64,000 bases of DNA from Tribonema minus. Lineage: Eukaryota; Sar; Xanthophyceae; Tribonematales; Tribonemataceae. Below, in pieces: positions 834-40,380 of this stretch (position 1 is the first letter of the stretch; each line of letters starts with the position of its first letter). The notes under the pieces were generated by a model. The model did not search any database. It saw only the letters and a program-made list of their open reading frames with translations, and had not been told where the DNA came from. The stretch covers positions 620,001 through 684,000 of the forward strand of contig JAFCMP010000201.1 in assembly GCA_017506865.1 (NCBI GenBank), in the 5' to 3' direction. The position numbers were made by a program, and so were the translations under genes.

Positions 834-1403
834 CTAGCGTCCTAATTGCGGACAATAGAGACATGGTGCTGTCTCAAGATGCGCTGTAGGCACCGCTTTT
901 GGGCAGTGTGTGTCGCGTTGTGCCTCGGGCTCAACAAGCAGCGTCGTGAACACCTTGGCCAGGTGATGGGCGAATGCCGGTTCCATCACATCCGATTCTG
1001 AATCACCAGCTAGTCCTGGCGAGGCACTGCCCACGGGGCGGGTGGCTGCTTTCACTGGTGCACCAGGCCCAGCGGCCATCAAGAGGTGTTCATAGCGTAG
1101 GCCGTCCAGCCCTCCTGCCTTCCCCGCCCCTGCTGCGGACAAGGTCGACAGTATGTCTGTCGCCTCCACCTCGAGGCGCCGTCCGGCTGCGCTGGCAGCA
1201 TCCTCAGGCCTATCGCTGCGATCATGCGCCTGACCCGATTCGAAGACGGGACTGCCGCTGCCAGCGGGCCCGGCGGTCGTTGCCACCCCTGCGCCGTGCA
1301 AGCAGTGCCGCCGGGCGTCGCGTACCAGGCCGCGCACTTGCTCCATTGGCGTATCGACTACCCCGGGCCGGGTGCTAGTTTCAGGGTGCTTTGCTGCCAG
1401 CAC
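834..1403 (-). pseudogene. LINE remnant: segment before the reverse transcriptase core
   Basis: A 189-codon open frame, rich in Ala, Gly and Arg, with AGKAGGLDGLRYEHLL about two thirds along. That motif normally precedes RT block 1. The sequence after it does not continue into recognisable RT blocks before the C-terminal fragment at 323-745, which indicates an internal deletion. Confidence 0.45.
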
Positions 1404-1535
1404 CTGTGCCGTGACCTCGTCTGCTGGGGCGCATGCTTCACGCGCCTCTAGTCGTGCGGCCGCAGCCAGGCCTACCCCCCGTCGCTTGCCTGAGAGGGCA
1501 GCGCATGCTGTTTGCTGCCTGGAGTCAGCCTCCGT

Positions 1536-1811
1536 CTAGTCGGCATCGAAGTTCGTTTGTGCCGACGCCGTAGCTGCGTTGTTTGGTTTGGGGGCCCGCA
1601 GCGCCGCTGCTGCTGACAGCGTCTTTCTCAGTAGCTCCGCAAAGTCGCCAGACAGCAACGCTGCCAGCCGGGCCGCAGGCGGCATACCGGTTCCCTCCGG
1701 TTGCCTACCAAAGGCCATTGCTGCTAGCAGGTGCAGCAGCCTGTAGCCGCGCTGCACTAGAGTCTGAGAAACCTGATGAGCAAACGCCCCGGCACCATGG
1801 TGGAGGCGCAC
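1536..1811 (-). pseudogene. Probable upstream piece of the same LINE remnant
   Basis: A 91-codon minus-strand frame, Ala/Leu-rich, lying upstream of the RT-region fragment in element orientation. It has no diagnostic motif, and is included because it is collinear and similar in composition. Confidence 0.3.
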
Positions 1812-2060
1812 CCGTGCCGCCTCGCGTGCACTGTCTGTGGCGTCCGCCAGTAGTACTCTAAAAACTTTGCAATTGCCAAGTGAAAGCTCAGCACGTTGAG
1901 ACCCTGAGGTGATTGATGCACATTACGGCAAACACGAGCCGCTGGCGTAGATGAGTGCGAGCTGGTGTACACTGGCATTATAAATTGAGTGCCCCAAGTG
2001 CGCTCTGCGCTGCCGCTGGCATCCCGGCGGACTTGTCTGACTTGTGCGCACACGTGCATT

Positions 2061-5301: not shown

Positions 5302-5520
5302 ATGCGGTTGCGGCATCAGCTTTTGCTCCTGGTGGCGCCACTGCTTAGGCACGCCACGGCACGGCCCGAAAATGTGATCCAACTGAACCAGATGTTGAGC
5401 GCTGCTGCTAACGGTGGCACGCAAACACTTCCAGCTCAGCCTGAGGGAGCAACATTCAACTCAGTGCTTGAGGCAGCTCCCTTGCGCAAGCTGCAGACAG
5501 CTGCTACCAGTACCCCAACG
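5302..5520 (+). CDS. Gene A exon 1: signal peptide
   Basis: 219 bp, 73 residues, ending in phase 0 at donor ACG|GTACGT. The ATG at 5302 is the first in this frame. It is followed by a basic start (MRLRHQ), a hydrophobic run (LLLLVAPLL) and a polar cleavage region (RHATARPEN), a normal secretory signal. The rest is Gln/Ala/Thr-rich. Being the only clear signal sequence upstream of the PT array, it is taken as the gene start. Confidence 0.6.
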
Positions 5521-8500
5521 GTACGTGCCACCGGTGGGTTTCTGGGTCATGTGTGTTCTACGGTACAAAGTATGCAGAGTGAATATGCGCAGTATGGCGT
5601 GCTAGGTGCCTTGAACACACATCACCTTGCTGGCAGTATGTCAGTGCAGATCTGCTCTGAGGTAGAACTGCAGACCTTTTTGTGATTCATCGGCACGTGC
5701 TACTGCTGACAGGTGGGTCAACCTAAATATGCTCACTGTGGCATATTCGACAATGCAGCATTGTAATCAGCCTGTCTGGCTCAACAATGTTCAGTTCAGT
5801 TCAAAGTTTTAACATGACCATCAGCTGTTCTGAGCACCTAGGCTGTCATCTGTTACAGTATGTGGGATTGGTCCCAGCGACTTGCCGCAACGGTGTTGGC
5901 TCTTCGTTCGGCTGCTTTCGATCTGGCAGCGCTTTGTACATTTGAAGTGCTGCCAACAGTGACAAAAGAAGTGTCCACACAAGTGCTCAGCACACACTGT
6001 GGTACCTGCGCTGACCACGGACAGATACTACTTCTACGTAACACATTCATCCGCAGTTCGTTCGACAAGGGAAGTGTTAAGTTACAACACCAACTGTTAC
6101 AGCTGGCACCGGTTGTTGCAAGAACGCAATTACGCTGACAAGTATACTATAACAGGACTGGCATTGGACTCTCCACAGCGCATTGCACTATGAAGCCAGT
6201 AATGTCACAGAAAGGTTATCTGTATGTGCATTGAATCAGAAAGGGGAAGGGTTAGGGGTATCACAGCCTCAGGCTCTCGACAAGCTTTTCATCTTGAGGA
6301 GACATACGTGTGGCATGGCTGTCAATGGTGGTTCCCAGGGTCTGCAGGTAGGGGGCAAGGGTGGCGTGCGCCATTGCAGCTTATGCTAAAGGACTCTGCA
6401 AGGCAAGCGGGCAGTAGCTGTTAACAAGGGCAGCATCGGTTCTTGCAAGGACATGTCGGACAGACCTGGGATGGCGGCACAGAAGGGCACGCGGTGCTGC
6501 ATTCAAAGAAAAATGGACGACGCTGTTATTGACAAAATTCTTGCTGTTCATTATTCACCGCATGAGCAGTGACTTGTCAGATGCTTCTGAACAATTAAAC
6601 TGCATTTGAATCACATTTGCAAGCCATTGACGCTTGTGAACAATTAAACTGCGTTTTGATCACATTCGCAAGACGTCGACCAAGTATTTGTGTTTTTGTG
6701 ATGTTGACCCGTTTGCAGAGACTGCGTCAACAAGCAGGTGCTGGTGTGTCATACAATGACGGTTGTGTGTGCACTTGTGCAGGGCCAAAACCACTTGAGA
6801 ATGACCTAGCAGGGCGCACTCTGTAGTAGCCTGTCTGAAGAACAGAGCCGCGGGCATGGAACTTGGAATTGTTGGGAAGAGCGATTGCAGAATTTCGCAG
6901 GAAGAATGGGGCTAGAGGTACACTGCCACAACAGCACATGCTTGAAGTTTATCACCGGAGTCAGCAATGCACATGGCAGCGTAGCACCAGCAGTGGAGAA
7001 GGACAAGCTGCCCTTGCCTGGGGTGAGGTAGTCTCAAGTGCAGGTTCATGAAGATGGTCAGCATTCCCCAGAGAGTAGCAGCCGTAGTAGTTCAATGATG
7101 GCTCATGGCCTTATCATCGTGATACTGAAGCTAATCATCTACCCTTAGCTCTGGAGGGCATTGGTTTCTGTCAGTGGAATGTGTGAATGCAACATGACAA
7201 TTCTCGGCACTACAGTGTCAGTGCTGACATATAAGCCTGACGCTGTACTCAACTGTAGTTCACTTTCGCGTGCCTTACCTCACTGTATCGTGTCCCGTCG
7301 CACTCTATGTTTCGCTGGTGCTCAGACGCCGCCGGCATCATCGCTCTTCAATTGGTGCGGGGTGGGAGCTGTGTGCGCCCAGGACTGCGTGGACCAGTGC
7401 AAACAAATCTGCACATTCCTTGCCATTGACTTCCATTCCACAGCCCAGTGCAGCCCAGCCTCACACCAGGGTCACCGTGACAGGGTAAGTGGCGTCTTTG
7501 GGATCATGCTTTACGATACTTGGGAAGTAATTGCCTGGGATATGCGTGGCTTGACATAATATCGCTTGGCAAGGATGCTATCGTTGGCGCCACATGCAAT
7601 TAAGTTACTTGATAGCGCCTGTGATGCGCATATGCGCTGGTGAGCGCTGCATTTTGGCGATGGCAATGCCTTTTGCTTGTCTCTTTGCTTGCCATAGGTG
7701 CACTTGATCATGCCGTGCAGGACCTTCTTCAAGGCTATCATGAAAAGAAACGTGCCGAGACCTGTTGCTCTTCTGCTGATATAACTGAGCTCTAGCAGTC
7801 GCATTCTCGCATACTGCAGTTGCCAACACTAGCAACCGACCAAAGCATTCTGTTGTCCTTCTACTCAAAGCACTTGTGTTGACACAGTACCAGTCAGAAT
7901 GGGCAGCAAGGTCGTGATAGGCCACAAGCTACGGAGTACAACAGTGCAAGAGGCAAAAATAGGGTTCTGAAACATCCATGGTGCACCCCCTCACAGGAGT
8001 CTTGATCAGCTCCAGCATATGGCTCTAAAGTGGTGAAACAATTAGCGCCTTCTTGTGATGCCGTTTATCTTCTCATACCACACGCTTGCAATCATCGCAT
8101 CACAAGTGGACATGTGTAAACGTGCGTGATGTGACAAATGATGTCCAACCGACCGTCGGGGCTGGGGCAGAACAAATGGGGCCCCTACATGCCGTCAGAC
8201 GTGCAGATGTACACGTTTAGTGTTTGAGTGCGTGCAAGGCAGCAGAAGAAGTCGGTGGCAGTCATCTTTTTGCTCAAGACGGTAGCTGGTGGTTTCTAAA
8301 TCATATGCACACACAGGGACAAGAACTGACTTCCAGCACGTACTATGCACCACCCGGAAAGACAGTGCCCGCCAGGGCATTCAAGTACACTGTGCCAACG
8401 CGGTATTGCAGCTGCAGACATCAGGGCTCAATGACTTCATGTCAATTTGCTTTGCTTTTAATTCGATGTCCTGCTTGAAGGGTATGTGCTGGCATAAATG

Positions 8501-11500
8501 CTGATTTGACTCTAGATGTGCAAACTGTCTTGAAATGGGTCAGCAGTTGAAGCTCGGCTTACAAAGGCCAGCCTGCAATGCACGACCCCCCTCCATCAAC
8601 CTCAACCCCGCCCTTCTCTCACATTCTGCATGTGCAAGCCCTGATAAAGCAACCACACTCTCTGTGTGCACCTGATGCACGAGTATGCCATCGTTGCCTT
8701 TCTGTTGCGTGCTGTCGCAGTGCTGTGACGACATTCTGCATGACCTGTGCATGCATCGGCCGGGACCGTGGACAGCTTACAAGGGGTCCTGTTGCACATG
8801 CTCACCGGTCCCCCCGACCCCAGCTCCCACAACAAAGCCAACGCGAAAACCAACGCGCACTTCAACAGCCAAGGTACTGGCATGTCCGATCAGACGCTAT
8901 TGTTAACTCAAATGTACCCTCTTGATATTGCTTTAGATTGCTAATAGGCTCATGCAGCCGTAACGGTTGTGGCTGCCGCAAGATACATTGTCCTGGTCAC
9001 ACTCAGAAAGAGGCAACGTGTATTGTTTTGTCAATAACAGGCATCAGATACATGCTGGTACTAATCAAATCTGAAGCGCCAAGCGCCTGAAGTCAATGTG
9101 TCACCAGTAGCACCAAGACGGTTGCTTGCATTTTAGTTGTGGCAGCATCTGGGCTGTAATTGTTTTATTAAAAACTCTGCCGTTGCCGTTGCCGTTGCCG
9201 TAGTGTTGGCGGCCCGGCCAGGGGGTATGGAGCTGCTAAACTAGTTTTCACCTGCAGCTACGACCGTTGCAACAATTTTTTTGCGCTTTCATTGCAGCCC
9301 ACGGCAAAGCCTACAGCAGCTGTAACTTCAAGGGCGCCAACGACAAGGCCCTCAGCCAAGCCGTCCGCATCGCCGACCGCCAAGCCGACTGTGGAGCTGA
9401 CACAAAGGCCTACTGCCATGCCAACCACCACAACCACTCCGTCAATGCAACCCACGTCCAGACCAACGCAGGCAGTACCTACCCTCAGGCCCTCAGTTCA
9501 GCCCACAGCAAATCCGACAGCTGTGCCAACTACCAGTCCCACTGCGGCACCCACCAGCAAGCGTACAAAGGCGCCAACAGCTGATCCAACGCCTGCGCCG
9601 ACACGGAGACCATCTCGCAGTCCCACTGTCCGGCCAACGGCAATGCCTTCTCTGGTTCCTACAAACACTCCGAGTCCAACCACTCAGCCGACCACAGCAC
9701 TACCTACATCACGACCGAGTCGGAAGCCCGTTACTGCCATGCCCACTGCAGTGCCGTCAGCCAGGCCAACAATGGAGCCAACAGCATTGCCCTCTACCAG
9801 AAAGCCGACTGCAGTGCCCTCAACAGCGCCAACTTCCAAGCCATCTGCGAGGCCGACCCGCAAGCCAAGCGCTGTCCCCACTTCGCAGCCGACCGCTACA
9901 GCCGCGCCGACAACTGGCAACCCTACTGCAAAGGCAAGTGCAGAGCCCTTCACGCCAAGACTGTGCTTGTTCAGATGGCTGCAGTCAACTATATGCTGTC
10001 GATGCCGGGAAGATTCTAGCAAGAGTCTGGAACGGTCCTGATGCATTTGGTGCAGCAGCTGCATCACGCATGATATTTGAATTCGGAGGTTGCTGTCATA
10101 TCTGAGCTGCAAGTTATCCATCATGTCGCACTGACCAGCTGCTCCTTGGCTGTCCTGATGCAGCCAACGATGAAGCCCAGTATCAAACCCACTGCGGAGC
10201 CTACCGCTGAGCCAACGGCCAAGCCCACCGCAGAGCCGACTGCTGAGCCCACGCTTCAGCCAACAGCGGAGGTAAGCAGTGCGCCTGGTAATGTAGTGAC
10301 AGTTTCCACGTGAACATTGACAGCCTGAGAACGAAGTAATGTGTCTCATCCATCGGAGTGCTTGTTTAGCGCTTGCAGTGGCGCCAGCAATGCATGCCTG
10401 CTGTTCAGGAAGTTATTTTATCACCAAGCCTTCTGACACCAAAGTGAGAGGAGTAGCTGTGCTGTGGCTGTGTCACTCCACAGTAATTTGCAAAATGCAG
10501 GCGCAGGCATTGGGGGTGCAGAAAAGCCGCTGGACCACGTAGTACAGTACAGTAAAGTTCAGTACTGTACAATATACAGTCGGTACCTGGGACACTGTCA
10601 TCACTCACTGTCAGCAGCGGTCACACATAGAATCTGATGCTGCCGTGGCCTACAGGCACAGGCACACACTGACGAAATGCACGCAGGCTTAAGGCGGAGT
10701 CACAGACTAGTGGTATACTGACATGATGCACATTTTGAGAGGGCAAGTACCTGCTCGCTGGGCTTGTGTCTTACGAATCAGACTGGACCGAGCACCACAA
10801 GGCTTTCAAATTGGCTGGTCAGGAAACGCACTCGCCGTCATGGTGAGGCCTGACATTCATGTGCTTCGAAGTATCACGCGGCCTAGACGCTTTTGAACAT
10901 CCTGCTCTGAAGCAAGGCTCCATCTGCAGGTACTTAAGAACTGATGTACATTGACTTCGCCTGCTACCACTGAGATGCCGCCACTTTGACAGCCGACTGC
11001 TGAGCCCACGGCCAAGCCAACAGCTAAGCCCACTGCTGAGCCCACCGCCAAGCCAACTGCGGAGCCCACCGCTAAGCCAAGTGCTGAGCCAACTGCCAAG
11101 CCCACTGCGGAACCGACTGCAGAGCCCACAGCTGAGCCCACCTCCAAGCCCACCTCTAAACCTACCGCAGAGCCCACTGCCAAGGTATTGTCTTGCTCAT
11201 GTACCTAATAGCACTACAATAAGCTATTTTTCAACCGGGAAGGCAAAGCAGAAGAAGCCTGCACTATCGCTGCGGCATTGAATCTTTTGTTTGCTAAACC
11301 TGATCCTTGGCGTATCCACGTGCAGCCTGAGGGGCGCAGCATGAGACATGCAGCTGAGGGTTGCAACCTGAACTTGTCACCTTCTGCACCCAAATTGAAG
11401 CCGTTGCTTGCAGCAAGCACGTTACAGACCCAGCAATGCATCATGGCGGTTTAGGAATGCGAGGTGCTTGAAGCGTATCCTCACCTGGTGCACCTGCCTG

Positions 11501-14500
11501 TGATTTTTCGTTGCAGCCCACGGGTGAGCCTACTGCCATGCCGACTGCTGAGCCAACGGCCAGGCCCACCGTCAAGCCAACTGCTGAGCCAACTGCTGAG
11601 CCCACTGCCAAGGTACCACATGTGACCATACACGGCTATGGCACAGGCAATAGGAAGCTGCTCAACAGTTGACTTGGAGGCAGCCTAGTAGCGGTATCGG
11701 ACACAAGTCTGCACTGCTGCACTGCAACTTTCGAAATGACTGGAATGCGTGCGGCTTAAGAATTCTGTCACTCATTTGAGGCCTGCTTCAAGTATCGCAG
11801 CGATAAGGTTATAGACCCACAAGTGTGACTGGTTATTCAGGGTGTTTGAGGCATTTTCCACCACTGTGAAACCTTCGGTGCAGCCTACGGCCAAGCCCAC
11901 CGCCAAGCCGACTGCTGAGCCGACTGCTTGAGGGGTTTGCACTGACACTGACCAATGACAGACAGAGACGAGGGCACTGACACTGCACAACAGCACTCAA
12001 GCAAGTGTGTGTGTGTGATCAGGCTGTCTCTCTGTTGTGAGCAGAGGACAACCAACCAAAACGCAACTGTTGTAACCGCCAACCAACTGCAACTGACAGT
12101 TGAACTTAGGTGACACACCCAGTGGCACCACAGTCACCCCCCCTAGGGCTAAGCTAAGCCCGATAACAGGGAAGCAACCATGACTTCACTACGTGCGATC
12201 ATAACACGCTACTATGCAAGACTTGCACAATAGCACATATGCTAACTGTCTCTCACCCAGCGCACATACGCTATGCACGAAAAACGCTCGCGACGCTATA
12301 CTACTGCCGCGCGGCAGACAGCTACAGTGTGACTAGCGCTGCGCTATTCCGCCGCCACCTTGCTACTTATCGCCCTGCAAAGCCCCCACTATACACGCTA
12401 GCCTAGCCCACTAACTCCAGCTGCTTCACTCCAGTACGCTGCGGAGCATGTGCTTGATCAGGGCACATGACACCAACGAACTGATAGCTACTAAGATTGC
12501 TTGGATGTGGTGGCACCGCGATGAAAAGAGGAAAGCCAAGCAGACGCCTGGCCCCGCGACGAAAAGCGGAAAGCCAAGCTGACGCCTGGCAGCCACGGGC
12601 GGAGCGCATAAGCTGAGTGCGCGCTGCCTGTCCTGAGCCGTCGCCACTGTTGTAGCAGCAGCATAAGTCGAAGCCGAAAAAATTAACGCCGCTAAGGGCG
12701 CTGTCGTTGACGTAGAAGGCGCGTCGCCATGGCACGGGCCGCTGCCCGCGGCGCGCTCACGGAAGAAAGCGCCAGCATGGGCGCCGCCATAGCGCAAGCC
12801 GCGGCGCGCCCGCTATGCGCAGGGACGGACGTAGGCGCAGGTACTATGAGGGTGCAGGTTGCGGCGTGCACGCTGCGCCGCGCAGGAAGAGGCGCTGGCG
12901 CAGGCGTTGCCATGAAAGGTCCGCGCCGCACACACCAGCTGCTGCTGCTGCTGCGCCTCGCGCGCCGCTGGCGCCAGCTGCTGCTGCTGCCGCGCCTCGC
13001 GCACCGCCAGCGCGCGTCGCCAGCTGCTGCTGCCAGTGCTGCCGCGCATTGCGCACGGCTGGCGCACGTCGCAGGAAGGGGCACTGGTGCAGGCGCCGCC
13101 ACGGAACGGTCCGCGCTATCCAGCAATAACATGCCGCTGAGCGCATCGCCAACACCTTCACCCCCCCCCGATGAAGCGCCATGTGTCGCTGCTGCGGCCG
13201 GCTCCGCCACCGCAGCGCGTGTTGAAGTAGGCAATGACGGAACATGCGAAACTGCTGCTGCGGTTCCCGCATAAGTGCTGCGCGCAGGTGATGATGGTGT
13301 CGCCGGCGCCACTGCGGCCGCCGAGGCCGCGGCGCGCGCGCCGTGCGTTGAAGCTGACATGAGTGTAGCGCGTGCCATCACAGGCGCCGCCGTCAACGTT
13401 GAAGTTGCAGCGCACGCCGTTCTAGGCGCCGCCGATGCTGATGTTGTCGCTGCTGCAGAAGCTGGGGCAGTCCCCACCCCCCCATGATCGCGCATGCCTC
13501 CTGCGCCGGCGTGGCATGCGCGCCCCGCCGCGTGCGCCGGCATGCCGCGCCGAGGCGCAGCTGTCCCGTGCGCCGCTGGTGGAGGTGCCGGTATGATGGG
13601 TGAGGCGGTTGGCCGCAAGTCGCTACCTGCGCGCGAAGAGGAAGACACCGCGGGCGCCGCTGCTGTGGCAGTGCTCCGTGGTGCTGGTGCTGCTGCATGC
13701 GCGGCGCTCAACGGCGCCGCCGCAGCAGCACCGTGCGCCACAACGGGCGCAGTGCCCGCGGGCACCGCTGCCGTTGCAGCGCTCTGTTGCGCAGCCGAAA
13801 TAGGTGTGGCGCTTGCTGGCGCCGCTGCAGCTGGAATTTCATGTGGTCGCTGCCGCCGCTGTGACACAGCCGCTGCAACCACGAGCGGCTGCTGCTGCTG
13901 CTGCTGTTGAGCAGCTGCTGCAACCGCGGGCGCGCCGTGCGAGCTGACTGATGTCGGGGGCAGGGCGTCAATCCCACCCCCCATGACACTAGTTGAAATG
14001 GAACCCCCGAATGCTCCCCCCGCGCCCAGGGCTGGCGCAGGGTCGCACCCCTATCCTGAAGCGCTGTCCGATCCATCGCTAGGTGCTGGCGAGCCCGGCG
14101 GCACGCTGCCGCCACCGGTGGTGCCACTGCCTGCGGTAGACACTGGAGAGCCCGGCTCCTCGCTGTTATAGTCACTGTAGCCGAGGTAGTGGAGCCCATC
14201 GCCTTCAGCGTCGCTGCCACTGTAATAGTCGTCGCCGCTGCCACCATCACTGCTGCCACCAAGCCCCTGCCTATATGAAGCCAGGTCTGTAGGAAAGATG
14301 GGGCAGTTCTCTCTAGGTGTGGTAGCATAGTGGTCGGCGATCTGAGCCTCGTCTGCCAGAATAGCAAGCAGCTGCTCTGAACGATACATGGCAGGCTCGC
14401 AGATGGCATGCTTGTAGGCGCCTGAGATGTTCGGGTGGTGGTGGCGCACAATCCGTAGTAGCGCGGTGACCACAATGTGATCAAGGGAGTTGTCGAGCAA

Positions 14501-17500
14501 TGTGGCGGTGTGGGCAGCGTCCGAAAACTCGATGATGAAAAGCTTGAGCGCCAGCCCCTGACGCAGTGACCAGTTCATCAGGTTAGCGGCGACTGAGGTA
14601 GGCTCCGCAATCTCCAAGAACTTGCCGATTTTGGTGAAGAGCCAGGAGAGCAGCGCGCCGTCGCGCAGGCCTTGCTCGCCGCCCTGCGTCTCCCAGGAGG
14701 ATGTCTGACGTGCCAGCATGCCGAGCCGAGGATGGTCGCCGCCGCCGTTGGCTATGCAGCTCACAATGCTGTATACCGCAGTGTTGAACCACTCGCAGCC
14801 AAAGTCGTCAGCATTGCGTAGGGCGGGCCATAGTGGCTGCTGTTTCTGACGAAGGGCGAGCGCTGCCGACCGAAACTTGCCCGGAAGCTGCTTCTGTAGG
14901 AAGGTGAGGGCAGAGACATTGCCCTGGTCGACCTTGGTCTTAGGAAACTGCTTCTCATCCAGGGTTACGGCGAAGCGCATGATCGCGTACCCTGATGCGT
15001 CGAAGCCTGCCAGGTCCACCTCTGCTGCCGGTGCTGCTGCCGTCACGGAGGCGCGGCGCGCGCTGTTATCATCACCGTAGTGACTGACCGTGGCGCCGCT
15101 GGTTGAGCCACCACCGCCATCGCCGTCACCGCCGCCGCTGCCGCCGCCTCCAGAGCCACCGCCACCGTCTGAGCTGTTGCTGCCGCCAGAGTCGCCGCCG
15201 CCGCCAGAGCTGCCGCTGCCGCCAGAGTCGCCGCCGCCGCCAGAGCTGCCGCCACCGTAGCGCGCACCCCCTTGACTGGGAGCGTTGCCGCTGTTGGCAT
15301 CGCGGCCAGCACGGCTGCGCACGCTCGCGTGCTCCAGCGCGCGCCACTCCGCGCGTAGGCAGGCCTGCTCGGCAAGCAGCGCTGCCTGCTGCGCGTCCAG
15401 TGCACGTTGCTGCACGTTGATCTCGCGCTGCTGCAGCACCGCCTGCGCGTTCAGCTGGTCCTGCTGCAGCAGCTGGCTGAGCTCCTCCTGTCTCTGATGA
15501 GCACGCTGACGCCGTGCTGCCTCCGTTAGCGCCTCCGATTGCCGCTGCTCCGCTAGGCGAATCTGCGTCGGACTCTGCTGCATGAGCATGTAGGTGGCTG
15601 GATGGCGTGCCTGACGAGCTGCGCCGTCGAGCTGCGCGCAAGCATCCGGTTTAAGTATGTCCAGCGGGTCGCCGCGCTGCATCGCTGCATGCTGTATGCA
15701 CAGCCCTGCACGCGGCGGCGTGCATGCATCGCCGGTGACGGTGCGCGTCGATGATGATGCTGCAACTGGCGCGGCGGGCGCGCTGCGCGGCGCTGAGGCA
15801 GTCTGCAACACCGATGCGGCGCACATATCTCTGTGTATACTGACCAGCATGGCGTACATGTCGTTGTAGCTGCGCTCCAGCCTTGTCGCGAGGGCCTCAG
15901 CACGGTCCTCTGTCGCTTGAAGTCGGGTGTTGATGGTATGCATGTGCGCATGCACCTCGAAGCCGATAATGTGGCTGATGTCGGCGTGCAGTTGGCGCCG
16001 GAGCTCTGCAGCAAGCTGCTGCATCTCACCCCCCCTTTCCCAGGCAGAGTAGCTGTTGGAACGTGAGGGTGGTATGGCGTCGTGGTAGCCATAGGTGGGC
16101 CTAGTGTCGTTGCCGGTGCCCACGGCCACGCCGTGGACAGATGTATGCTCCATGCTACGGGGCGTCTCAGCGGTTAAGCCGAAACCACCACTGGCAATGG
16201 AGCTTCTCGCCGATGAGCTAGACACAGACGGTTGGCGGTCGTCTGCCGTTGCACCGACGGGTGCGCGAAAGAAGGGAGCCAGGCCATCAGGGGCGTCCTG
16301 CCGGAGCACAACAGGCGGCACAGCTGTGGCTGACATCCAATCTCCACGACTTGCTGGCTGCAGCGGAACCTCCGCCACAGCATGGACGACGGAAAGGCGG
16401 TGCCCGGCCTTCCAATCGTCTGGTCGACGAGCAGTGGTCATCGCCTTCTTGGCGAAAGGGCTGCCTATGAGGGGCGAATCTCCTTCAGCAGCAGACGTAC
16501 GCGTTCCATGCTGGCGCTCCCAGCCAATCGGCATTTCGTGTAACTGCTGCAGCAGTACGGGTCTAATGGTAGGCCGCGTTTTGTACCGAGAACCAATTGA
16601 GGGGTTTGCACTAACACTGACCAATGACAGACAGAGACGAGGGCACTGACACTGCACAACAGCAATCAAGCAAGTGTGTGTGTGTTATCAGGCTGTCTCT
16701 CTGTTGTGAGCAGAGGACAACCAACCAAAACGCAACTGTTGTAACCGCCAACCAACTGCAACTGACAGTTGAACTTAGGTGACACACCCAGTGGCACCAC
16801 ATGCTGAGCCAACTGCTGAACCGACTGCTGAGCCAACTGCTGAGCCCACTGCCAAGGTATCACTTGTGTTGTTGATTTATGCATGCTATGGCACAGTCAA
16901 TTTGCCATACCTCAACATTTGACTCGGAGGCAGACTAGCCGTTGTTGGACACAAGTCTGCACTGCTGTGCTGCATCTGGATCCATCCATCATTACCGCTA
17001 CGGTATTGCTCTGGGTGGGCAATGCCTTTGCAACTTGAATGCCTAGAACATATTGTGCCATCTATCACCTCTTTGTCGCCTGTTGACTGCATCAAGAAGG
17101 TTACAGGCCCACAATGTGTTGTGATTGATTATTTGAGATGTTTGACATTGTCTGCCACCTGCCTGTTCACTTTTATTGCAGCCTACAGCTGAACCCACAG
17201 CCGAGCCGTCTGCTGAGCCAACTGCCAAGCCCACCACTGAGCCAACTGCTGGGCCAACTGCTGAGCCCACTGCCAAGGTATCACTTGCGTTCATATACGT
17301 CATGGCACAGGCAATAAGCCATGATGGTTGTCAATAGTCAAGGCAGACTATGAGGAAATGCTGACATTAGTACTACACTTCAACAAGTCACTGTGCAGGG
17401 AACAATGCAGGCGAGGCACCCACACACAACACAGCTGAGGTCACCGGACTGTGCCATGTGTATTATGAGGGTTGCTGCTCTAAGACTTAAGTTTTTTAGC

Positions 17501-20500
17501 AAATCAACAGACAACGAAAGATCTTGTACTGCCACAACTGCAACAGCCACAGGTGACACTCCAACATCCAGGGTCACCAAGTTGAACTAGCGTTTATCGG
17601 AAATAGGTCTGCACACCAGCTTCACTGCATCTGAATTCAAACATAGTTTTGCCTTGGTCGGCATTGCCTTGACGATGCCTAGACTTCATTGTGCAAGCGA
17701 TAGGATGCAACTCGAGCTCTGGCGCGCTCAGGCTTACGTGCAGGGTGACATGCAAGTCGTCCCTTTCCAATTCGATTTGGCACCTCTTTCTGGCAAAAAC
17801 CACTTCACAGACCCACAACTGTGCACAAGTGCATCATGGTTGAATTATGAGCAGGTTGAGGTATTTTGCGCTGCCTGCCTGTGCCTGTCCGTTGCAGCCT
17901 ACGGCTGAGCCCACCACCAAGCCGACCGCCGAGCCAACGGCCGAGCCCACCGCTGAGCCGACTGCTGAGCCAACTGCTGAGCCAACTGCGGAGCCCTCCG
18001 CCAAGGTATTACTTGTGTTTATACATTCATGCTATGGCACAGGCATCAAGCCATTGTTCAACAGTTGACTTGGAGGCAGAGGAGCGAATATTCGAACATG
18101 TTTGCACTGCTGCACTGCATCTGGGTATAAACACAGTGTGGCGTTGGTTGGCACTGTCTTTGAATGCCTAGCATAAATTGCGCCTTGCTGTCGCCTATCT
18201 GTAGCCTGTTGATCGCAGCAAGAAGCTTACAGACACACAAGACTTAGAGCACCTTGATTGATTATTTGAGGTGTTTGAGGTGTTTTTATCCACTGCAACT
18301 CTTTGAAATTTGTGGCAGCCCACCGCCGAGCCGACAGCTGAACCAACGGCCGGGCCCACAGCTGACCCGACGGCTGAGCCAACTGCTGAGCCCAGTGCCA
18401 AGGTATCGCTTGTGTCCATGTGTGCTATGACACAGGCAGTAAGCTAGCAATTGCTGAAAATGCGAGGCAAACCAAGTAGCTCTTATTGGCAACAAGTCTG
18501 CACTGCTGCACTGCATCTGAATGCAAACATGGTGTTGCTTTGGTTCGAATTGCCTTGACCATGTTTCGTATGCATTGCGCCTTCTATCACATGGTTTTTG
18601 AAACCTGATCATTGCAGCACAAAGGTCACAGGCCCACAGGTGCACCATGACTTGCCTATTTGAGGTGTCTGAGGCATTTTCTGCCACTGTGACACTTGTT
18701 GCAGCCTACAGCTGAGCCAACCGCCGAGCCCACCACTGAGCCAACGGCCAAGCCCACAGCCGGGCCGACTGCTGAGCCCACTGCTGAGCCCACTGCCAAG
18801 GTATCGATTGTCACAGTGGTCATATATGCCATGGCACAGGCAATATGCCATTGCTCGACAGTCCAGGAAGACAAGCATTTAAAGGGCACAAAGACTGCAC
18901 TGCTGCACTGTATCCGGATCCAAATATAGTGTTGCTTCGGTTGGCATTGCCTTTGAAATGTCCAGAATACACTGCTGCGCCTTCTGTCATCAAGTCGAAG
19001 CCTGTTTATCCCAGCAAGAAGGTTACAGACCCACAAGTGCACTGCGACTGACAATTTGAGATGTTTGAAGCGTTTTCTGCCACTGTGACAATTTCATTGC
19101 AGCCTACGGCTGAGCCCACAGCTGAACCGACTGCTGAGCCAACGGCCAAGCCCACCACTGAGCCCACTTCGGAGCCGACTGCTGAGCCAACTACTGAGCC
19201 TACTGCCAAGGTACTACTTCTATTTAAACTCACATATGCTATGGCACACCCAAGCAGACAATGCTCAACAGCGGAGGCAGACCAGCAGTAATTTGAAAGG
19301 TGGCATTATTGCACTGCATTGATTTACACATGGTGTTGCTTCGGTTTGGCACTGCCTTTGCAACGCCTAGACTACATTGTTCAAGCCTTAGAATGCAACC
19401 CAATCTTTCTTTGGCTTGCTCAGGCTGACGTGCAGTGTGACCTTAAAGTCTTGACTTTCTGAAGTAAACCGATTGAAGCGTTTTTCACGCAGAGAGGGAA
19501 TAACAGAATCGCAATTGCGCATAAGTGCACCATGGTTGAATTCTGAGTAGGTTGAGATATTTTCCATTACCTGCCTGTGCCTGTTTGTTGCAGCCTACGG
19601 CTGAGCCCACCGCCGAGCCGACTGCTGAGCCAACGGCCAAGCCCACCGCCCAGCCGACGCCTGAGCCAACTGCTGAGCCCACTGCCAAGGTATATTTGTG
19701 TTCATATATGCATGCTATGGCACAGGCAATAAGCCAGTGCTCAACAGTCAAAGCAGACTGGTCATTATTGGACACAGGTCTGCACTGCTGTGCTGCATCT
19801 GGATCCAAACATAACCACCGTGTTGCTTTAATTGGCAATGTAGTGCCTTCGCAATGCCTAGAATGTATTGCCCCATCTGTCAACTCTTTGGAGCCGGTCG
19901 ATTGCATCAAGAGGGTAATTACAGGCCCACAACGCATCGTTTTTGATGATTTGAGATGTTGACATATTCCGCCACCTGCCTGTTCACTCTCATTGCAGCC
20001 TACAGCTGAACCCACAGCCGAGCCGACTGCTGAGCCAACTGCCAAGCCCACCTCTGAGCCAACTGCTGAGCCGACTGCTGAGCCCACTGCCAAGGTGCTA
20101 TTTGTGTTCACATATGCGATTGCACACCCAATCAGACAATGCTTTACAGTCAAAGCAGACTAGCGGTTGTTGGAAACAACTTCCAAACAAGTCAGCACTT
20201 CTGCACTGCAGCATTTGGATCCAAACATGGCATTGCTTTCAAGTCGATTGGGATTGCCTTAATAAAGCCTTGAGTTTACATTGCGCCTTCTGTGACCACT
20301 TTGCAGCCAGTAAGTCACATACTGACAATTGCACTGTGACTGATCATTTGAGGTGTTTGATGCGTTTTCCACCACTGTGACACGTTTGTTGCAGCCTACG
20401 GCTGAGCCCACCGCCAAGCCAACCGCTGAGCCAACGGCCAAGCCCACTGCCGAGCCGACTGCTGAGCCAACTGCTGAACCCACTGCCAAGGTATTACTTG

Positions 20501-23500
20501 TATGTGCTATGTCATAGGCAATAAGCAGTCGCTCAACAGTTGACTCGGAGGCAAACTAGTGGTTGTTCAGAACAAGTCTGCACTGCTTCACTTCACTGCA
20601 TGTGGATCTAAACATAAGTTCGTCTTGGTTGGCATTATCTTGAATGCCTAGAATACATTGCGCCTTCTGTCACCTACTTGACGCCTGTTGACCGCAGCAA
20701 GAAGGTTACACACGCACAAGTGCACCTTGATTGAGTATTTGAGGTTTTTTAAGTGTTTCCACTGCGACACTTTCGTTGCAGCCCACGGCTGAGCCCACCG
20801 CCGAGCCCACAGCCCAGCCCACTGCCAAGCCCACTGCGGAGCCAACTGCGGAGGTGAGCCACCAGGCTTCAGTATACTTCAACCCTGAAGTGCTCGATTC
20901 GCGGAGCAGAGGCATGATCACATTTCTGCATTCACTTCTGAATCAGAAGTTCGCTTTTGTGATCAGGTGTGATCACATTTTCGCATTCACTTCTGAATCA
21001 GGAGTTCACTTTTTCACGCTGCTTTCTCCTTTGTGTGATTGTCAAAACACGCTGTGCACGAGCTGGTCCTTGGCACTTTGCTGTGGCGATATTGTGCTCA
21101 GTCATCAACGTAATAAAAGCATTTCGGTTCGGCTCGATATGCCGCAATACGTGTGAACTGCCTTGCGCATCGCGGTGCACTGCGACTTGCCATGAATCCA
21201 CTACACTTCTTGAACCTTGCAGTGGCCACATGCACAAGTATTTAGAGTATTTGTTTTCTTTTTGGCAGTAGCAACGCGCCCGACTATTGCAACCTGTAGG
21301 GCGGGGTCACAGTGCATTGATGCTGTACGGCGTGCCAGAAATACACTGGCAGTCTGATTATCAACTTCTGTAACCGGCATGATAGCTCTTTGAGACGGCA
21401 CCAGCTCCCTCGCTTACATGTGGAGTAATCCGTGATGCACAGAGACTTGCGCCGTGGTTGTGTTCCCTCTTGACTTCACTGCCTGCTATCTTTTCTCATG
21501 CGCCGCCGCCCACTGCAACTCTTTCATTGCTGCAGCCAACATCTGGACCAACTGCCAAGCCCACTGCGGAGCCCACCGCCAAGCCAACTGCAGAGCCCAC
21601 TGCAGAGCCCAGTGCTGAGCCCACCGCCAAGCCAACTGCAGAGCCCACTGTTGAGCCTACTGCCAAGCCCACTGCGGAGCCCACAGCTGAACCAACTGCT
21701 GAACCCACCGCCAAGCCCACTGCTGAGCCGACCGCCGAACCAACCGCTAAGCCTACAGCAGAGCCCACTGCCGAGCCAATCGCAGAGGTGATTGCAGAAG
21801 TACATGGCACATTCTCAAGTACTTTGCAGTGTCTGGTAGGAGTGTGCGTAAGCTACCATAGTTCACATCATGCACAGTGCACAGGCTAGTGTAGTATGCA
21901 TCATGCATAGTGTAGGCAAGGTGCCCCATTTGCGCATGTTTAATGCACATACACCTCTTGCTACGATAGCTCTTCGTCTCAGGAGCAGCGCCGCTTCTGA
22001 CCCTGATTTCTGCACAGCAGCGCCACGCTGTCTGTGAGTGCGCGCAGCTTATCAATTATTGTGCTCTGCATCCCACTCTTGTGCTCTGCATCGTCACTGC
22101 AGCCAACTGCCAAGCCCACGGCGGAGCCTACTGCTGAGCCTACTGCTGAGCCCACTGCCAAGCCAACTGCTGAACCCACCGCTGAGCCCACTGCTGAACC
22201 CACTGCTAAGCCCACTGCTGAGCCCACTGCTGAGCCCACAGCGAAGCCCACCGCCAAGCCCACCGCAGAGGTGAGTGCAATGGTCAGATAACAGCATGTG
22301 CTGGCTGGTTGCTGAGCATTGCTGGGCGTCATTGTGTGCAACTGCTTAGCGATGCCTGCTGGTCGCATGTGGGCGCTTCAATCGCACGCGCTCTTGTGTA
22401 AAGTGCGGGTTACGATATCATGGAACTGTATGTGTTGCCACCAGTGGTGCTGCACGATGGCACGCCCTTCACTAGTGCCAACAGTGCTTTCATCATTACT
22501 ATGGGCAGTGTTGATCGTGGCAGCTCTCAGGTGGGCGTTTGCTTCTGTTCGGTGTGCGAGCTTCGCGATCGCTCCTGGTGGCTTTCTGCTGAGTTGGTGG
22601 GATGTGGCAAGGGTGTTAAAAACGTTTCATTTAGTACTTCGCATGAAATTGTGCACATCGTACTGTTGACAAGAATTGCTCACGCCAAGAGGCGGGGGAA
22701 GTGTACCATGGGCGCAGCACTTGCGTGCTGTTGCCATGTCCGCATGGATGCCGTATGCGCAAGTGCTTCATGACAGCAGCGCTAGTCGTACGTGCAGTGC
22801 TGCCCCGTTACTCAACAACCACAATTCTTGCCCCTCTGTGCGTACAAACTGGCAGTGCCAGTGTGCAAAGCTGAAGCTGACTCATCTTTGTTTTCTGCGA
22901 CATTGCAGCCTACTGCTAAGCCAACCACAGAGCCTACTGCTGAGCCCACTGCCAAGCCAACCGCGGAACCCACTGCCGAGCCCACCGCTGAGCCCACTGC
23001 CAAGCCTACTGCCGAACCCACCGCCAAGCCGACTGCTGAGCCCACATCCGAGCCCACTGCCAAGCCCACTGCAGAACCCACAGCGGAGCCTACGGCAGAG
23101 CCAACTGCCAAGCCTACTGCTGAACCCACCGCCAAGCCAACTGCGGAACCCACTGCGGAGCCTACTGCTGAACCCACCGCCAAGCCCACTGCTGAGGTAA
23201 CTGCAATAGTCGGTTGATGCTAGTAGTTTTTCATTGGTGGGCATCATTTTGCGCTGTTGCCGTGCAATGGCTGCCGCTGGCTGCTGTATAAAGTAAACAA
23301 GCAAGTGCATAGCAAGTGCATGGAGCCACGACTAGTGTGCTACATGCAGATTGGTTAGTGTGTGATACGCACGCATGATCCGCGTTGGAAATGCTTCTTT
23401 TTCCCCGCCATCAAAATCAAAAAAAATTCACAGAAACTGATGCGAACAGCAGAAGTGGCGTAGAGAAATATCGGCATGCATACTTGCAGGCCTGGATGAA

Positions 23501-26500
23501 AGTTGCCTCTCCCGTACTTTCGAGTAGAAAAAGTGGAAAATTTCTCCATTACACTCCATATGTGTATACACATTATGCAAGGCAGGGTTTCATCCTGTTC
23601 GTGCATGCATGTTGCATGTACCTCTTGTGCTGCAGTAGCTCTGGTCCCAGGAGCAGTGCCACTTCTGACCCTGCTTCTCACAGGTTTTTGCCCCCAACTT
23701 TTTGCCTATATCGCTGTGTACTCACCTTTATTAATCAATTCTCTTTTCTAGTCCTTTGCCCCATCTGTCTGCATAGCCATGCCTTCAGCTTTCTTGTTTT
23801 CTGCAACAACATTGCAGCCCACCGCGGAGCCAACTGCCAAGCCAACTGCGGAACCCACTGCCGAGCCCACCGCCGAGCCCACCGCCGAGCCCACCGCCAA
23901 GCCTACTGCTGAACCCACCGCCAAGCCTACTGCTGAGCCAACCGCTGAGCCCACAGCCGAGCCAACTGCCAAGCCCACCACTGAACCTACAGCGGAACCT
24001 ACAGCAGAGCCAACCGCTAAGCCTACCGCGGAGCCAACTGCCAAGCCAACCGCCGAACCCACTGCCAAGCCCACCGCCAAGCCCACTGCTGAGCCCACTG
24101 CCAAGCCTACTGCTGACCCCACTGCCGAGCCAACCGCAGAGGTAACTGCCCAATTTTGTGTAGATGCTGCTTTGATCGGCAGTGGCTCGTGCAGTACGTC
24201 CAAGTCATGGCAGCAACGAAGTGATGCATCACTTGCACAAGCGCCAAGTGCATAGTGAGCGCATGGAGGCATCGTTTCTTGTTGATCACGCAGCAGTTTG
24301 TTGTGCAGCGTGGCACGCATGTCTCAGTGCCTCATCATTGCAGCAGCCTTTAGAGTTTTTGATTACTGTAGCGTGATAATTTTAGAGCTAAACGGCCACT
24401 TCTGCAGTCGCAAGCCATGATACCTCCCGTTAACCAAATGTGACATCCTTCATTGCAACGTGATCATGATCACTGCGAGCAGGGGCACTAGAGCAGGTGT
24501 TGTGCGCCTGCCAAGGCATATCTCAAACATTTCAGAACACAGCTCCATGGGCCAACTGTTGAATACATTGCATTGCGAGTAGGAGCAGTGCTTACAGGCT
24601 GCGCATCATGCACACAAGCGCATATAGTGCATGCTGGAGTGTCGTGCCCATCGTGGTATAGTTGCGCGTGCCTCTACCCCTACAGAAGCCGTTGGGTCAG
24701 ATGCAGCGCTGCTTTTTCCCCTTGCTATTCAGACCTTGCCCACACTGTTGCATAGCCGTTTAAAGCTGAGTGTGTGCACTGCAGCTGATCTTTTCACGGG
24801 TTGCGGTGCGACATCATTGCAGCCAACTGCCAAGCCCACCGCGGAGCCAACTGCTGAACCGACTGCCAAGCCAACGGCGGAGCCCACCGCTGAGCCCACT
24901 GCCAAGCCGACTGCTGAACCCACTGCCAAGCCGACTGCAGAATCCACCGCCGAGCCCACTGCTGAGCCCACTGCCAAGCCTACTGCTGAACCCACTGCCA
25001 GGCCCACTGCTGAACCCACAGCCGAGCCCACTGCTGAGGTGATTGCGATAGCTAGTAAAAGCTACATGGTGATGCCTGGTGTCTGGGTGCTGGTTCATAA
25101 AATCTCACATGTTGGAGCTGCCACTAGGTGGTACATCTATTGCCCAGTGCTATACGTACGCGTGGTGAGCGCATGCACCGTGTTTTGTCGCGCAACATGA
25201 TCATTGTGCCCTGCACAGTATGTAACTTACAGTAAAGATAGCCTTGACATGCCGCGTCGCTGTTGACTCTGCTTGTCGGGTTGTTGACCCAATTGCATAG
25301 CCATGTACTCAGCTGATGGACTTTTCAGTTTTCCTGTTCATTGCCCCAACTTTCCGCTTTTCCGTGCTTCCATCTCATCCATCCTTGTTTTCTGCAACCA
25401 CGTTGCAGCCAACTGGCAAGCCAACTGCGGAGCCGACTGCTAAACCCACAGCCAAGCCAACTGCAGAGCCCACTGCTGAGCCCACCGCTCCGCCCACAGC
25501 CAAGCCAACTGCTGAACCCACAGCCAAGCCCACTGCTGAGCCCACCGCCAAGCCTACTGCTGAACCCACCGCCGAGCCGACCGCAGAGGTGATTGCGATT
25601 ATGGGTACATACATGCTGCAGTGTTCGGCAGTGTCTTATGCAGTGCGTCCAAGTAATGACCAACACGAGTTGATGCATCAATTGCACCACCATTGTCAAG
25701 TGCATAGTGGGCCCATGGAGTCATCAGTTCTTGTTGGTCACGCTGCATGGTGATTGTGCAACGTGGCACGCATGTCTCAATGTGGCACGCATGTCTCAGT
25801 ACTTCATCGTTTCAGCAGCCTTTAGAGTGTTTGAGTACTGTGACATGGCAGTTTCACAGCCAAACGGCCACGTCTGCAGTCTCAAGGCACTTTGATCCAA
25901 TGTGCCGTCCTTGATCGCAAAGTTATAATGATCGCTGCGAGCAGTGGCATCAGACCATGTGTAGTGCACTGAGTCTTGGGATGGCATACATCAAGTCTTT
26001 CATTACAAAGTGGCATTATGTCACTGTCGGGTACTTGTAAATTGAAGAGGTGCTGATAGGATGTGCATTATGCACACACAGTGCATGGCAGAGAGTTGTG
26101 CCAACCCTACAGCCTGTTGCATATGCATATTGCATATGCTATCCTGCCGCGGAAGTTGTTTCGTCAGATGCAGCAATGCTTCTTTCCTTACTTTTCAGAC
26201 CTTGCCCCCCGTGTTGCACAACCGTCCAAAGCCGAGTGTGCGCACTGCAGCTGATCCTTTGACGTGTTGTGCTGCGACATCATTGCAGCCAACTGCCAAG
26301 CCCACTGCCAAGCCTACTGCTGAACCCACAGCCAAGCCGACTGCAGAACCCACCGCTGAGCCCACGGCTGAGGTGATTGCAGTCATCTATTGATGCGGCC
26401 AATGCCTGAGTGCTGGGCGTTGCCTCATCTTATGCCACTGTATTCCAGTTGTATCTGCCCCTAGCTGGTGCATCTATTGCACAAGCGCCATACGTACGCA

Positions 26501-29500
26501 TAGTGAGCGCATGCACCGTGCATTGTCGCGCAACATGGTCATTGTGCCCTCCACCTGTTGCAAGCGCCTCACCCGCTACAAGAGCCGCTGCCCCACATTC
26601 GCGCTTTTCCGTGCCTTCACCTTGCCGATTCCTTTTCCCGCAACGGCATTGCAGCCTACCGCCAGGCCTACCGCGGATCCAACTGCCGAACCCACCGCCA
26701 AGCCCACCGCTGAACCCACTGCCGAGCCCACTGCTGAGCCCACCGCCAGGCCAACTGCCGAGCCCACCGCCAAGCCTACTGCAGAGCCAACTGCTGAGCC
26801 CACCGCTGAGCCCACCGCCAAGCCTACTGCCGAGCCCACAGCCGAGCCCACTGCAAAGCCCACCGCAGAGCCGACCGCAGAGGTGAGCAGGCTTGTATGC
26901 TACCTCAGCACTAACACAGATGCATGTGCGGACGGTCCGAAGGTCGCGGTACACACCAGCTTTGCCTTGACCTCTGAAACGCTTGACGGCTTCTTACAGG
27001 CACGTCATGTTCACGGTTGGTCGCATCAGACGCACGCAATTGCGAATCGGGTGGCGTTTTCACCATGCTATGTAGAGGCAGGGCCGGTTTTCCACTCGTT
27101 GAGCCCCCCTTAGAACAATGCTGCTACGTGGCTTGCTGGGTGAGCTGCAGGTACAGCTGAGCCTTGAGCACAAGTACACACCTGCCCTGGGTGTGTGGCA
27201 CTATGTACTTTGAAGCAAGTCACGCGCACGAGCAGCCGCGGCAGCAGGGTCATGCTTAGTCACATGCCATAGACGTATGAAGTGGATGCTTAGTCACATG
27301 CCATAGACGTATGAAGTGGCTGTGCGTGTATGCTCAGTTCCTTTCTCGGCATACGATGCGAAAACGAAGTCGCGCCTGTTGCTGTAGTAGTACTCAGCTG
27401 TCTGGTGCAATGTGCAACGAACATTGTGCTGTGCCTGCGCACTTGCTTTACTGCTCTCAGTACAGTTGCAGTGCCTTTTGTGTCTCTCACGATGCCACCG
27501 TCACTGCCACTTTTGCACTTCTGCAGCCAACCGCTGAACCGACTGCCAAGCCTACTGCCAAGCCCACTGCGGAGCCCACAGCTGAACCAACTGCGGAGCC
27601 CACCGCCATGCCGACTGCAGAGCCCACTGCCAAACCAACTGCAGAGCCTACTGCCAAGCCCACTGCTGAACCCACCGCAAAGCCAACTGCAGAGCCCACA
27701 GCGGAGCCCACCGCCGAGCCCACTGCAGAGGTGGGTGCGATCGTCAGATGATAGCGTACGCTGGCTGATTGCTGAGCATTGCTGGGCGTTGGTGTGTGTA
27801 GATGCTTTGCAGTGGCTGCTGGTCACCAATAAGCGCTTCAGTCGCACGCGCCCTCATCTTGTGTTTGGTGCTGTACAGTGAGCCGCCGTCCACTCGTGCC
27901 ATCAGTGCTCTCATCATTACTATGGACAATGTTGATTGTGAAAGTGCTAAGGCTGAGTAGTGTTTGCTGCCGTTTAGTGTGAGAGCCCCCGCAATGACTC
28001 TGGTTATCTTTCTGCTGAAGTTGGTGGAAGGTGGCAAGGTTGTGGCATTCATTGGAGCTGACTCAATTTGCTCTTGCTGTGATAACATTGCAGCCTACTG
28101 CCAAGCCCACTGCGGAGCCAACTGCTGAACCCACTGCCAAGCCAACTGCGGAACCCACTGCTGAGCCCACTGCCAAGCCGACTGCCGAACCCACCGCCAA
28201 GCCTACTGCTGAGCCCACTGCTGAGCCCACAGCCGAGCCCACTGCCAAGCCAACTGCAGAACCTACAGCAGAGCCAACTGCAAAGCCTACCGCGGAACCA
28301 ACTGCTGAACCGACTGCCAAGCCAACTGCAGAACCCACTGCGGAGCCCACCGCTGAGCCCACTGCCAAGCCTACTGCTGAGGTGATTGGAATAGTTGGTG
28401 GACGCTAGTAGTAGTTGGGTGCTGGACGTCTTCTTGCATTGTCGCCGTGCGATGGCTGCCGTTCGCTGTTTTAACAAGTAAACAAGCACATGCATAGCGA
28501 GAGCATGGAGCCAGGGACTAAGTGTTACACGCAGATAAGTTCTAAAGTATGTGATTCAAATGCATGGTCCGCGTTGGAAATGCTTCTCCTCATAATCACA
28601 ATTATATGTTTTAACCAGAACTGACCAATCATGCGAGCAGCAGTAGTATAATGGTGTAAATAAAATTGGGCATGACTGCTTATAGGCTCGAATGAAATTG
28701 TGCCTCTCACATACTCTCAAGTAGAAGAAGTGCGCTATGTCTTCTGTGCAGTATACATGGCGTAAATAGGGTGTAACCCCGCTCATACGTGCATGTTACT
28801 TGCACTTCTTTCGGTGACAGTAGCTCTGGTCTGGGAGCAATGCTTCTGCTCATCCTGCTTCTTACAGGTTTTCGCCCCAAATTTTACAGCGGTGTACTCA
28901 CCTGATCGATCCATTGTGTTGTCCAGTCCTTTGCCCATCTGCTTTCGTGTCCATGCCTTCACCTTTCATGTCTTCTGCAACATCATTGCAGCCAACTGCC
29001 AAGCCCACCGCTGAGCCCACTGCTGAAACCACGGCCAAGCCCACTGCTGAACCCACTGCCAAGCCCACTGCTGAGGTGATTGCGATAGTTGATAAATGCT
29101 ACATGGTGATGCCTGGTGTCTGTGCGCTGGTTCATATAATCTCACATGTTGTAGCTGCCACTAGTGATACATCTATTGCGCAGTACATACGCACAGTCGG
29201 CGCATGCAATGTGTTTTGTCGTGCAACATGGGCCGGGCATTGTGCCCTGCACAGTAGCCGTTGCATGAAAGGGAGCCGGAAAACGTCACGCGGCCGTTGA
29301 CCCTGCTTTAAATGTGTTGTTGACCCAACTGTTTGCGTAGCCATCTACTCAGCTGATTACCTTTTCTGGTTTCCAATCCTTTGCTCCAACTTGACGTTTA
29401 TCGGTGCCTTCACCATCGTTCCTTGTTTGCTGCAACCACGTTGCAGCCAACCGCCAAGCCCTCCGCGGAGCCAACTGCTGAGCCCACTGCGGAGCCGACC

Positions 29501-40308: not shown

Positions 40309-40371
40309 ATTTAGTTATTGCAAGCCCGATTTATCGTGCGCGCAGCCCATGCGGTCCAGGACATAATATAC
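37694..40371 (+). mobile_element. LINE copy 1, 5'-truncated, restriction-like endonuclease type
   Basis: Similarity to copy 2 begins at GCGCGCCTCAGCG in the RT region and runs to the 3' end, a typical 5' truncation from incomplete reverse transcription. Its nucleotide sequence differs from copy 2 only at scattered positions, so both are recent. The 3' untranslated tail is short (about 63 bp), ends GGACATAATATAC before the target copy, and has no poly(A). GC is far above the flanks. Confidence 0.9.
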
Positions 40372-40380
40372 AACTTCAAG
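40372..40380 (+). repeat. Target-site copy AACTTCAAG (middle)
   Basis: It separates the two head-to-tail LINE copies: 3' tail of copy 1 on the left, 5' end of copy 2 on the right. Confidence 0.65.

Follow-up and report, generated by a model that had tools for sequence, protein, structure and literature searches.

The 64,000-nucleotide stretch analysed here (the window) is C201:620001-684000 of the alga Tribonema minus; C-numbers denote contigs of the source genome, which comprises 158 Mb in 554 contigs. On the forward strand of the window lies a proline-threonine (PT) repeat gene (referred to as the PT gene), in which a stalk of ~1,556 residues (exon 5 counted), mostly PTAE and PTAK, is divided among 26 PT exons, the last of them putative (Table 1). 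Exon borders were set by reading the sequence and with scripts, using repeat edges plus splice dinucleotides and no transcripts. When the exons were read in order without exon 5, no in-frame stop was met, and a sequence of 1,798 amino acids was obtained. A preliminary description of this gene had reported that each of the 25 PT exons before the last is a whole number of 12-nt tetrapeptide codes, beginning with a Pro codon and ending with a Glu or Lys codon, and had regarded the gene as a digital length adjuster for an extracellular stalk.

All 25 of these exon lengths were reproduced, and all are divisible by 12 (exon 5 at its empty site). The terminal codons were also as described: the acceptor was CAG/CC (the slash marks the splice border) and Pro the first codon in 26 of 26 PT exons, while the last codon of the 25 internal exons was GAG in 13 and AAG in 12. 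Donors were AG/GT in 24 of 25 cases and AAG/GCAAGT after exon 1. Divisibility by 12 is built into any run of tetrads, and the informative check is on the splice dinucleotides, which stood exactly at the edges of the tetrad runs throughout, although the introns contain just 71 GT per kb. Each of the 25 introns contained an in-frame stop if read through. On the intron side the donor consensus was weak (+5 G in 6/25). The statement that introns never fall inside a tetrapeptide held for 24 of the 25 internal exons; exon 1 is degenerate and keeps the Pro register in only 24 of 53 tetrads, and therefore its 636 bp make no statement on register. The three putative 5' head exons (219, 159, and 153 bp) are in phase 0, and none is divisible by 12. 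The GC-AG intron at window position 9934 is not the only one of its kind: PT exons on C511 hold two more GC donors.

The placement of the borders may be read from the repeat itself. Among 340 AG dinucleotides in exons 2-26, 267 ended at a unit edge, and the other 73 (offsets 5, 7, 10, and 11) were all in phase 1 or 2. Because the unit-edge AG is the sole phase-0 AG, the only possible site for a phase-0 intron that follows an AG is between units. GT was scarce in the same exons (10 in 4,032 nt, against the intron density given above), and 20 were found in the 636 nt of the degenerate exon 1. As many as 54 of the 336 units end in A, yet the exon-final codon was GAG or AAG in 25 of 25.

In these 336 units (exons 2-26), position 1 was Pro in 334, position 2 Thr in 328, position 3 Ala in 312, and position 4 Glu or Lys in 314. 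At the nucleotide level, 132 distinct 12-mers were present: the first and second positions of the Pro and Thr codons had an entropy of 0-0.12 bits, and the third positions of the Pro, Thr, and Ala codons 1.6-1.75 bits. The proportion of nonsynonymous differences (pN) was lower than that of synonymous differences (pS) in 10 of 11 chosen exon pairs, for example 0.038 against 0.463 between exons 17 and 24. Three exons were scanned against Pfam, and all exceeded the cut-off (26.2 bits) of the PT repeat profile PF04886: exon 1, 72.6; exon 17, 98.7; exon 26, 115.7 bits. As far as the sequence can tell, the PT repeat is under protein-level constraint.

PT repeats matched at least 13 contigs (C201, C13, C553, C212, C434, C511, C56, C468, C131, C368, C145, C103, and C257; best 150 of 762 candidates scored), and a family-wide count was made on the window plus 12 segments (23 fetched stretches), with C56, C145, C257, and C368 left out. 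Scripts called 187 PT clusters, repeated copies included, in which the acceptor stood at the first Pro in 158, the donor at the last unit in 170, and both in 146. Of the latter, 122 were divisible by 12: 20/20 in the window and 102/126 elsewhere. The 24 exceptions, all outside the window, contained PTTxx five-residue units (20 clusters) or a PMGTAK six-residue unit (4 clusters); their unit-edge borders follow from the selection, as only such clusters entered the count. The 41 clusters that missed an edge were left out of the rule; many had been stretched by the script into an intron or are readings in another frame, and some are true oddities. An earlier script, applied to the window plus 9 segments, had given 91 of 121 distinct sequences divisible by 12. 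A strict 12-nt code was rejected because 24 of 146 family exons break it. The rule of the family, judged from these borders, is a phase-0 splice between units rather than a 12-nt length, and lengths in multiples of 12 follow when all units are tetrapeptides.

The introns carried evidence of duplication. Introns 4-13 were mutually related, as were the pairs 16 and 23, 17 and 24, 18 and 20, and 19 and 25; 23 of the 25 introns (all except introns 1 and 3) had a relative in the window or at another fetched PT locus, and in a paralogue on C13 relatives of introns 15-25 follow one another mostly as they do in the window. Homologous intron pairs were compared within and between the window and C13, and those with an alignment covering <60% of the shorter intron were dropped; in the 35 pairs kept, the preceding exons differed by a multiple of 12 in 35/35 (25 non-zero), and the introns themselves in only 4/35. 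The former count arises because all compared exons are already multiples of 12; the point is that homologous exons changed in length, and only by whole units. Intron 19 and the intron of an array on C212 (see below) were searched genome-wide. For intron 19, all 6 candidates were scored, and the 6 matches, one of them the intron itself, lay in PT genes on C201 and C13; the C212 intron gave 38 matches in its own array and 2 in PT arrays on C553 (best 40 of 61 candidates scored). As for the earlier claim that any exon can be skipped, duplicated, or exchanged without disturbing frame or register, the exons are indeed frame-neutral cassettes, their homologous copies differ by whole tetrapeptides, and cassette number differs; the register of exon 1 is the part that did not stand.

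Tandem arrays of exon plus intron were found in paralogues. On the minus strand of C212 (C212:466052-484989, read from 484989 down to 466052) were 38 tandem units of 506 bp, each with a 216-bp exon (18 tetrapeptides) and a 290-bp intron; 26 units were identical, 11 had 1-4 base differences, and the last was divergent, mainly in its intron. In 30 kb around this array, 50 runs of at least 4 tetrads were detected, each flanked immediately by CAG on its 5' side and GT on its 3' side. Their lengths were 72 bp (three runs), 96 bp (two), 300 bp (one), 216 bp (38), and again 72 bp (six), in sum 9,348 bp or 3,116 residues. The amplification was probably recent, judging from the near-identity of the copies, and an assembly error is possible; the array is probably more striking than the gene in the window. 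Two further arrays, with longer periods, consisted of six 147-bp exons, not divisible by 12, with a period of about 665-741 bp (C212:547854-551628), and of four 252-bp exons spaced 1,448 bp (C131:13062-17657).

PT exon 5 is split by a long terminal repeat (LTR) element of ~4.9 kb, whose two 204-bp LTRs differ at 3 positions; this low divergence suggests a recent insertion. As assembled, exon 5 reads PTAKPTAKPTAEPTA and then an in-frame TGA (stop after PTAEPTA). The LTR sequence matched at least 43 places, its own two included (best 40 of 111 candidates scored). No Pfam family was found in the 872- and 430-residue minus-strand open reading frames of the element.

The start of the gene very likely lies upstream of PT exon 1, where a signal-peptide-like exon and two Cys-rich exons were recognized. 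Outside C468, relatives of the head were weaker: the neck gave short, weak matches on C511 and C103, and a further weak match lay on C139. A Pfam scan of the head and of the tail (29819-30109) gave no family. The signal-peptide-like first exon and the Cys-rich head, both judged by eye, suggest that the protein is probably secreted. In composition alone the stalk may be compared with the hydroxyproline-rich glycoproteins, which are marked by hydroxylated, O-glycosylated Pro/Thr. By its composition, the stalk would form an extended glycosylated rod; as a fully extended chain advances 0.31 nm per residue, 1,556 residues would span ~480 nm.

Table 1. Predicted exons of the PT gene and the inserted LTR element (window coordinates; PPT, polypurine tract; PBS, primer-binding site)
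Feature	Position	Strand	Length (bp)	Remarks
Likely 5' exon A	5302..5520	+	219	Phase 0; signal-peptide-like start MRLRHQLLLLVAPLLRHATA; by inspection
Likely 5' exon B	7326..7484	+	159	Phase 0; Cys-rich head part 1; C468 relative 51% over 37 aa
Likely 5' exon C	8721..8873	+	153	Phase 0; Cys-rich head part 2 and PTPAPT neck; C468 relative 47% over 51 aa
PT exon 1	9298..9933	+	636	Degenerate repeat, 24/53 tetrads in register; GC-AG donor
PT exon 2	10164..10271	+	108	
PT exon 3	10993..11184	+	192	
PT exon 4	11517..11612	+	96	
PT exon 5	11884..16856	+	96 at empty site	45 + 51 bp around LTR element
LTR element in PT exon 5	11929..16801	.		LTRs 11929-12132 and 16598-16801; TGCT target duplication; PPT/PBS-like order suggests minus orientation
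PT exon 6	17182..17277	+	96	
PT exon 7	17898..18005	+	108	
PT exon 8	18319..18402	+	84	
PT exon 9	18705..18800	+	96	
PT exon 10	19103..19210	+	108	
PT exon 11	19594..19689	+	96	
PT exon 12	19999..20094	+	96	
PT exon 13	20395..20490	+	96	
PT exon 14	20782..20853	+	72	
PT exon 15	21536..21787	+	252	
PT exon 16	22103..22270	+	168	
PT exon 17	22909..23196	+	288	
PT exon 18	23818..24141	+	324	
PT exon 19	24823..25038	+	216	One internal Pro-to-Ser unit
PT exon 20	25409..25588	+	180	
PT exon 21	26289..26372	+	84	
PT exon 22	26655..26882	+	228	
PT exon 23	27527..27730	+	204	
PT exon 24	28094..28381	+	288	
PT exon 25	28992..29075	+	84	One internal Pro-to-Thr unit
PT exon 26, putative last (if unspliced)	29447..30112	+		31 tetrad units (372 bp) followed by unmatched tail; stop ends 30112

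Several other features were observed in the window and the genome. Window positions 1000-1854 belong to a dispersed repeat with at least 39 further places at 98-99% identity (first 855 bases of the query); downstream of the gene (30559-31500), CCCTAA/TTAGGG-like stretches are interspersed in short repeated segments; and positions 38001-46000 form a block of 69-74% GC versus about 50% around it. On C334 (714136-714324), a red-type rbcL fragment with a stop was found, apparently plastid DNA in a nuclear contig. Nine Rubisco chains, which we take to be red-type, matched this fragment at 6.8e-33 to 4e-32, the others at 4.7e-26 or weaker, and those of the Chlamydomonas/plant kind at ~1e-17. Antenna-protein matches numbered 92; among solved structures, chains of 9vfj ranked highest, followed by ACP/CAC chains (cryptophyte), and for another antenna protein FCP chains (diatom) came first. 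Together these matches point to an alga of the red plastid lineage and not to a green alga.

We consider it likely that the PT gene grew by collagen-style amplification of exon-intron units, with the register fixed by the splice AG, and that it encodes what is probably a secreted Pro-Thr stalk. An ancestral phase-0 intron would have stood at a unit edge, and the gene would have grown by repeated tandem duplication of exon plus intron, to which the intron homology attests, with unequal recombination as the presumable cause of cassette gain; within exons, 12-nt units would have been gained and lost, possibly by replication slippage. Copies would inherit the unit-edge border, and the splice signal would hold it there because an exonic phase-0 AG occurs only at the unit-final Glu or Lys codon. 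Multiples of 12 would then arise automatically wherever every unit is a tetrapeptide, and the length of the stalk would change mainly at the DNA level, through the numbers of cassettes and of units. The regularity of the exon lengths is genuine; it seems to be a side effect of gene growth, however, and is no proof of a switchable length adjuster.

Several observations weigh against this interpretation. The PT exon borders are predicted from repeat edges rather than from transcripts. When exons were called by splice strength, blind to the register, lengths divisible by 12 came out for just 16 of 24 distinct window exons and for 64 of 108 exons outside the window, a low score that was probably due to the weak intronic donor consensus. 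No relative of intron 1 was detected, and intron 3 matched only intron 9, over 62 nt and in just one of the two comparisons made. One exon pair (6 and 12) had a pN (0.043) not below its pS (0.037), and homogenisation among repeats can imitate constraint to some degree, but would hardly produce a surplus of synonymous differences. In addition, the LTR element and the in-frame stop interrupt the gene, which may be inactive in the sequenced strain.

We regard as rather unlikely the reading that the locus is not a working gene but minisatellite-like DNA or a decayed gene, whose exon-like order is a relic. The TGA that immediately follows the insertion in exon 5 and the satellite-like appearance of the 38-copy 506-bp array would fit it. 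On the other hand, the constraint acted at the level of the protein, the other exons remained open over 1,798 residues, splice dinucleotides were kept at 26/26 acceptors and 25/25 donors (one of them GC), and the 3/204 differences between the LTRs suggest that the insertion came late; a pure satellite was rejected on the basis of codon-position entropy and pN/pS. It is very unlikely that introns were inserted independently into pre-existing repeat DNA, by introners or transposons at AG/C proto-splice sites, with the register reflecting the choice of target. Each unit does offer one phase-0 AG, and the introns do resemble one another, but the two introns searched genome-wide (intron 19 and that of the C212 array) matched only PT genes among the scored candidates, on which ground an introner origin was rejected; relatives of introns 15-25 mostly keep their order in the C13 paralogue, and exon and intron are copied as one.

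That skipping and inclusion of exons tunes the length of the stalk, and that selection for this maintains the 12-nt rule, appears unlikely. Such a function would agree with the 25/25 internal PT exons that are in phase 0-0 and begin with Pro, so that any skip keeps the frame and (exon 1 apart) the register, as well as with donors that are weak beyond +3 and could favour skipping. However, 24 of 146 family exons are not multiples of 12 and are nevertheless in phase 0, showing that 12 is not required; and since every unit has a single phase-0 AG, the register is fixed in any case. Regulated exon skipping would be possible in principle. From the preliminary view of a digital length adjuster for an extracellular stalk, the extracellular location was retained as suggested by the head, whereas the digital part was weakened, the multiple of 12 being dispensable and the register largely forced by the sequence. 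Beyond amplification of exon-intron units, we tentatively propose that the family acts as a fast-changing ruler at the DNA level: the copy number of near-identical cassettes may set the stalk length and may vary between strains or clones by unequal recombination, always in frame and register owing to one phase-0 splice point per 12-nt unit and almost no cryptic donor. If this were true, even a cassette hit by a transposon could be dropped by skipping it.

Fibrillar collagen is the closest known system. Its exons measure 54 bp or a related size and open with a complete Gly codon, and amplification of an exon unit with unequal crossing-over has been proposed (the model of Yamada et al. 1980, as described in passages of PMC2852846). 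In both genes, exons hold whole repeat units and start with the intact codon of the key residue (Gly in collagen, Pro in the PT gene), and the PT gene shows features of collagen-type growth: whole-unit exons in phase 0-0 (24 of 25 internal exons) and duplication of exon plus intron (23 of 25 introns with relatives). The PT gene differs in that it is algal, has a P-T-A-[EK] repeat of 12 nt instead of Gly-X-Y of 9 nt, and is without a 54-bp module; furthermore, at least one PT paralogue has near-identical, probably recent cassette copies. The PT gene has no Gly-X-Y repeat, the PT repeat was its sole family above the Pfam cut-off, and no COLF1 propeptide was matched by Pfam in 29819-30109, the putative 3' end.

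The same XPTX repeat (PF04886) is shared with proteins of a diatom and a bacterium: in Thalassiosira pseudonana, many gene products that respond to silicon contain PT repeats, and some of these are silaffin-like (passages of PMC5501833), and strains of Propionibacterium acnes differ in the number of repeats in DsA1 (passages of PMC5527093). These passages describe no cassette exons, whereas the length of the PT gene is carried by 26 PT exons. Titin PEVK is an extensible filament rich in Pro, Glu, Val, and Lys with 26-28-residue motifs, and alternative splicing of many I-band exons yields size isoforms (passages of PMC5498327); unlike titin, in which isoforms were demonstrated, the PT gene has a unit of 4 instead of 26-28 residues. 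Among the open-licence papers searched, judged by title and start of the abstract, we found no report of a PT-repeat gene with register-keeping cassette exons. Introner elements are known as many similar introns within one genome; the two PT introns searched genome-wide, in contrast, were confined to PT genes among the scored candidates.

Collagen is the textbook gene built by amplifying an exon of whole repeat units, and an unrelated algal repeat of extracellular type obeys the same rule. A simple reason for this rule can be offered here: the repeat code leaves each unit a single in-frame splice point, and GT hardly occurs internally. The family combines old, diverged duplications (the gene in the window) with an apparently recent amplification (38 copies on C212), and provides a tractable system in which to ask whether selection is needed at all for exons to stay in register and whether there is natural variation in cassette number.

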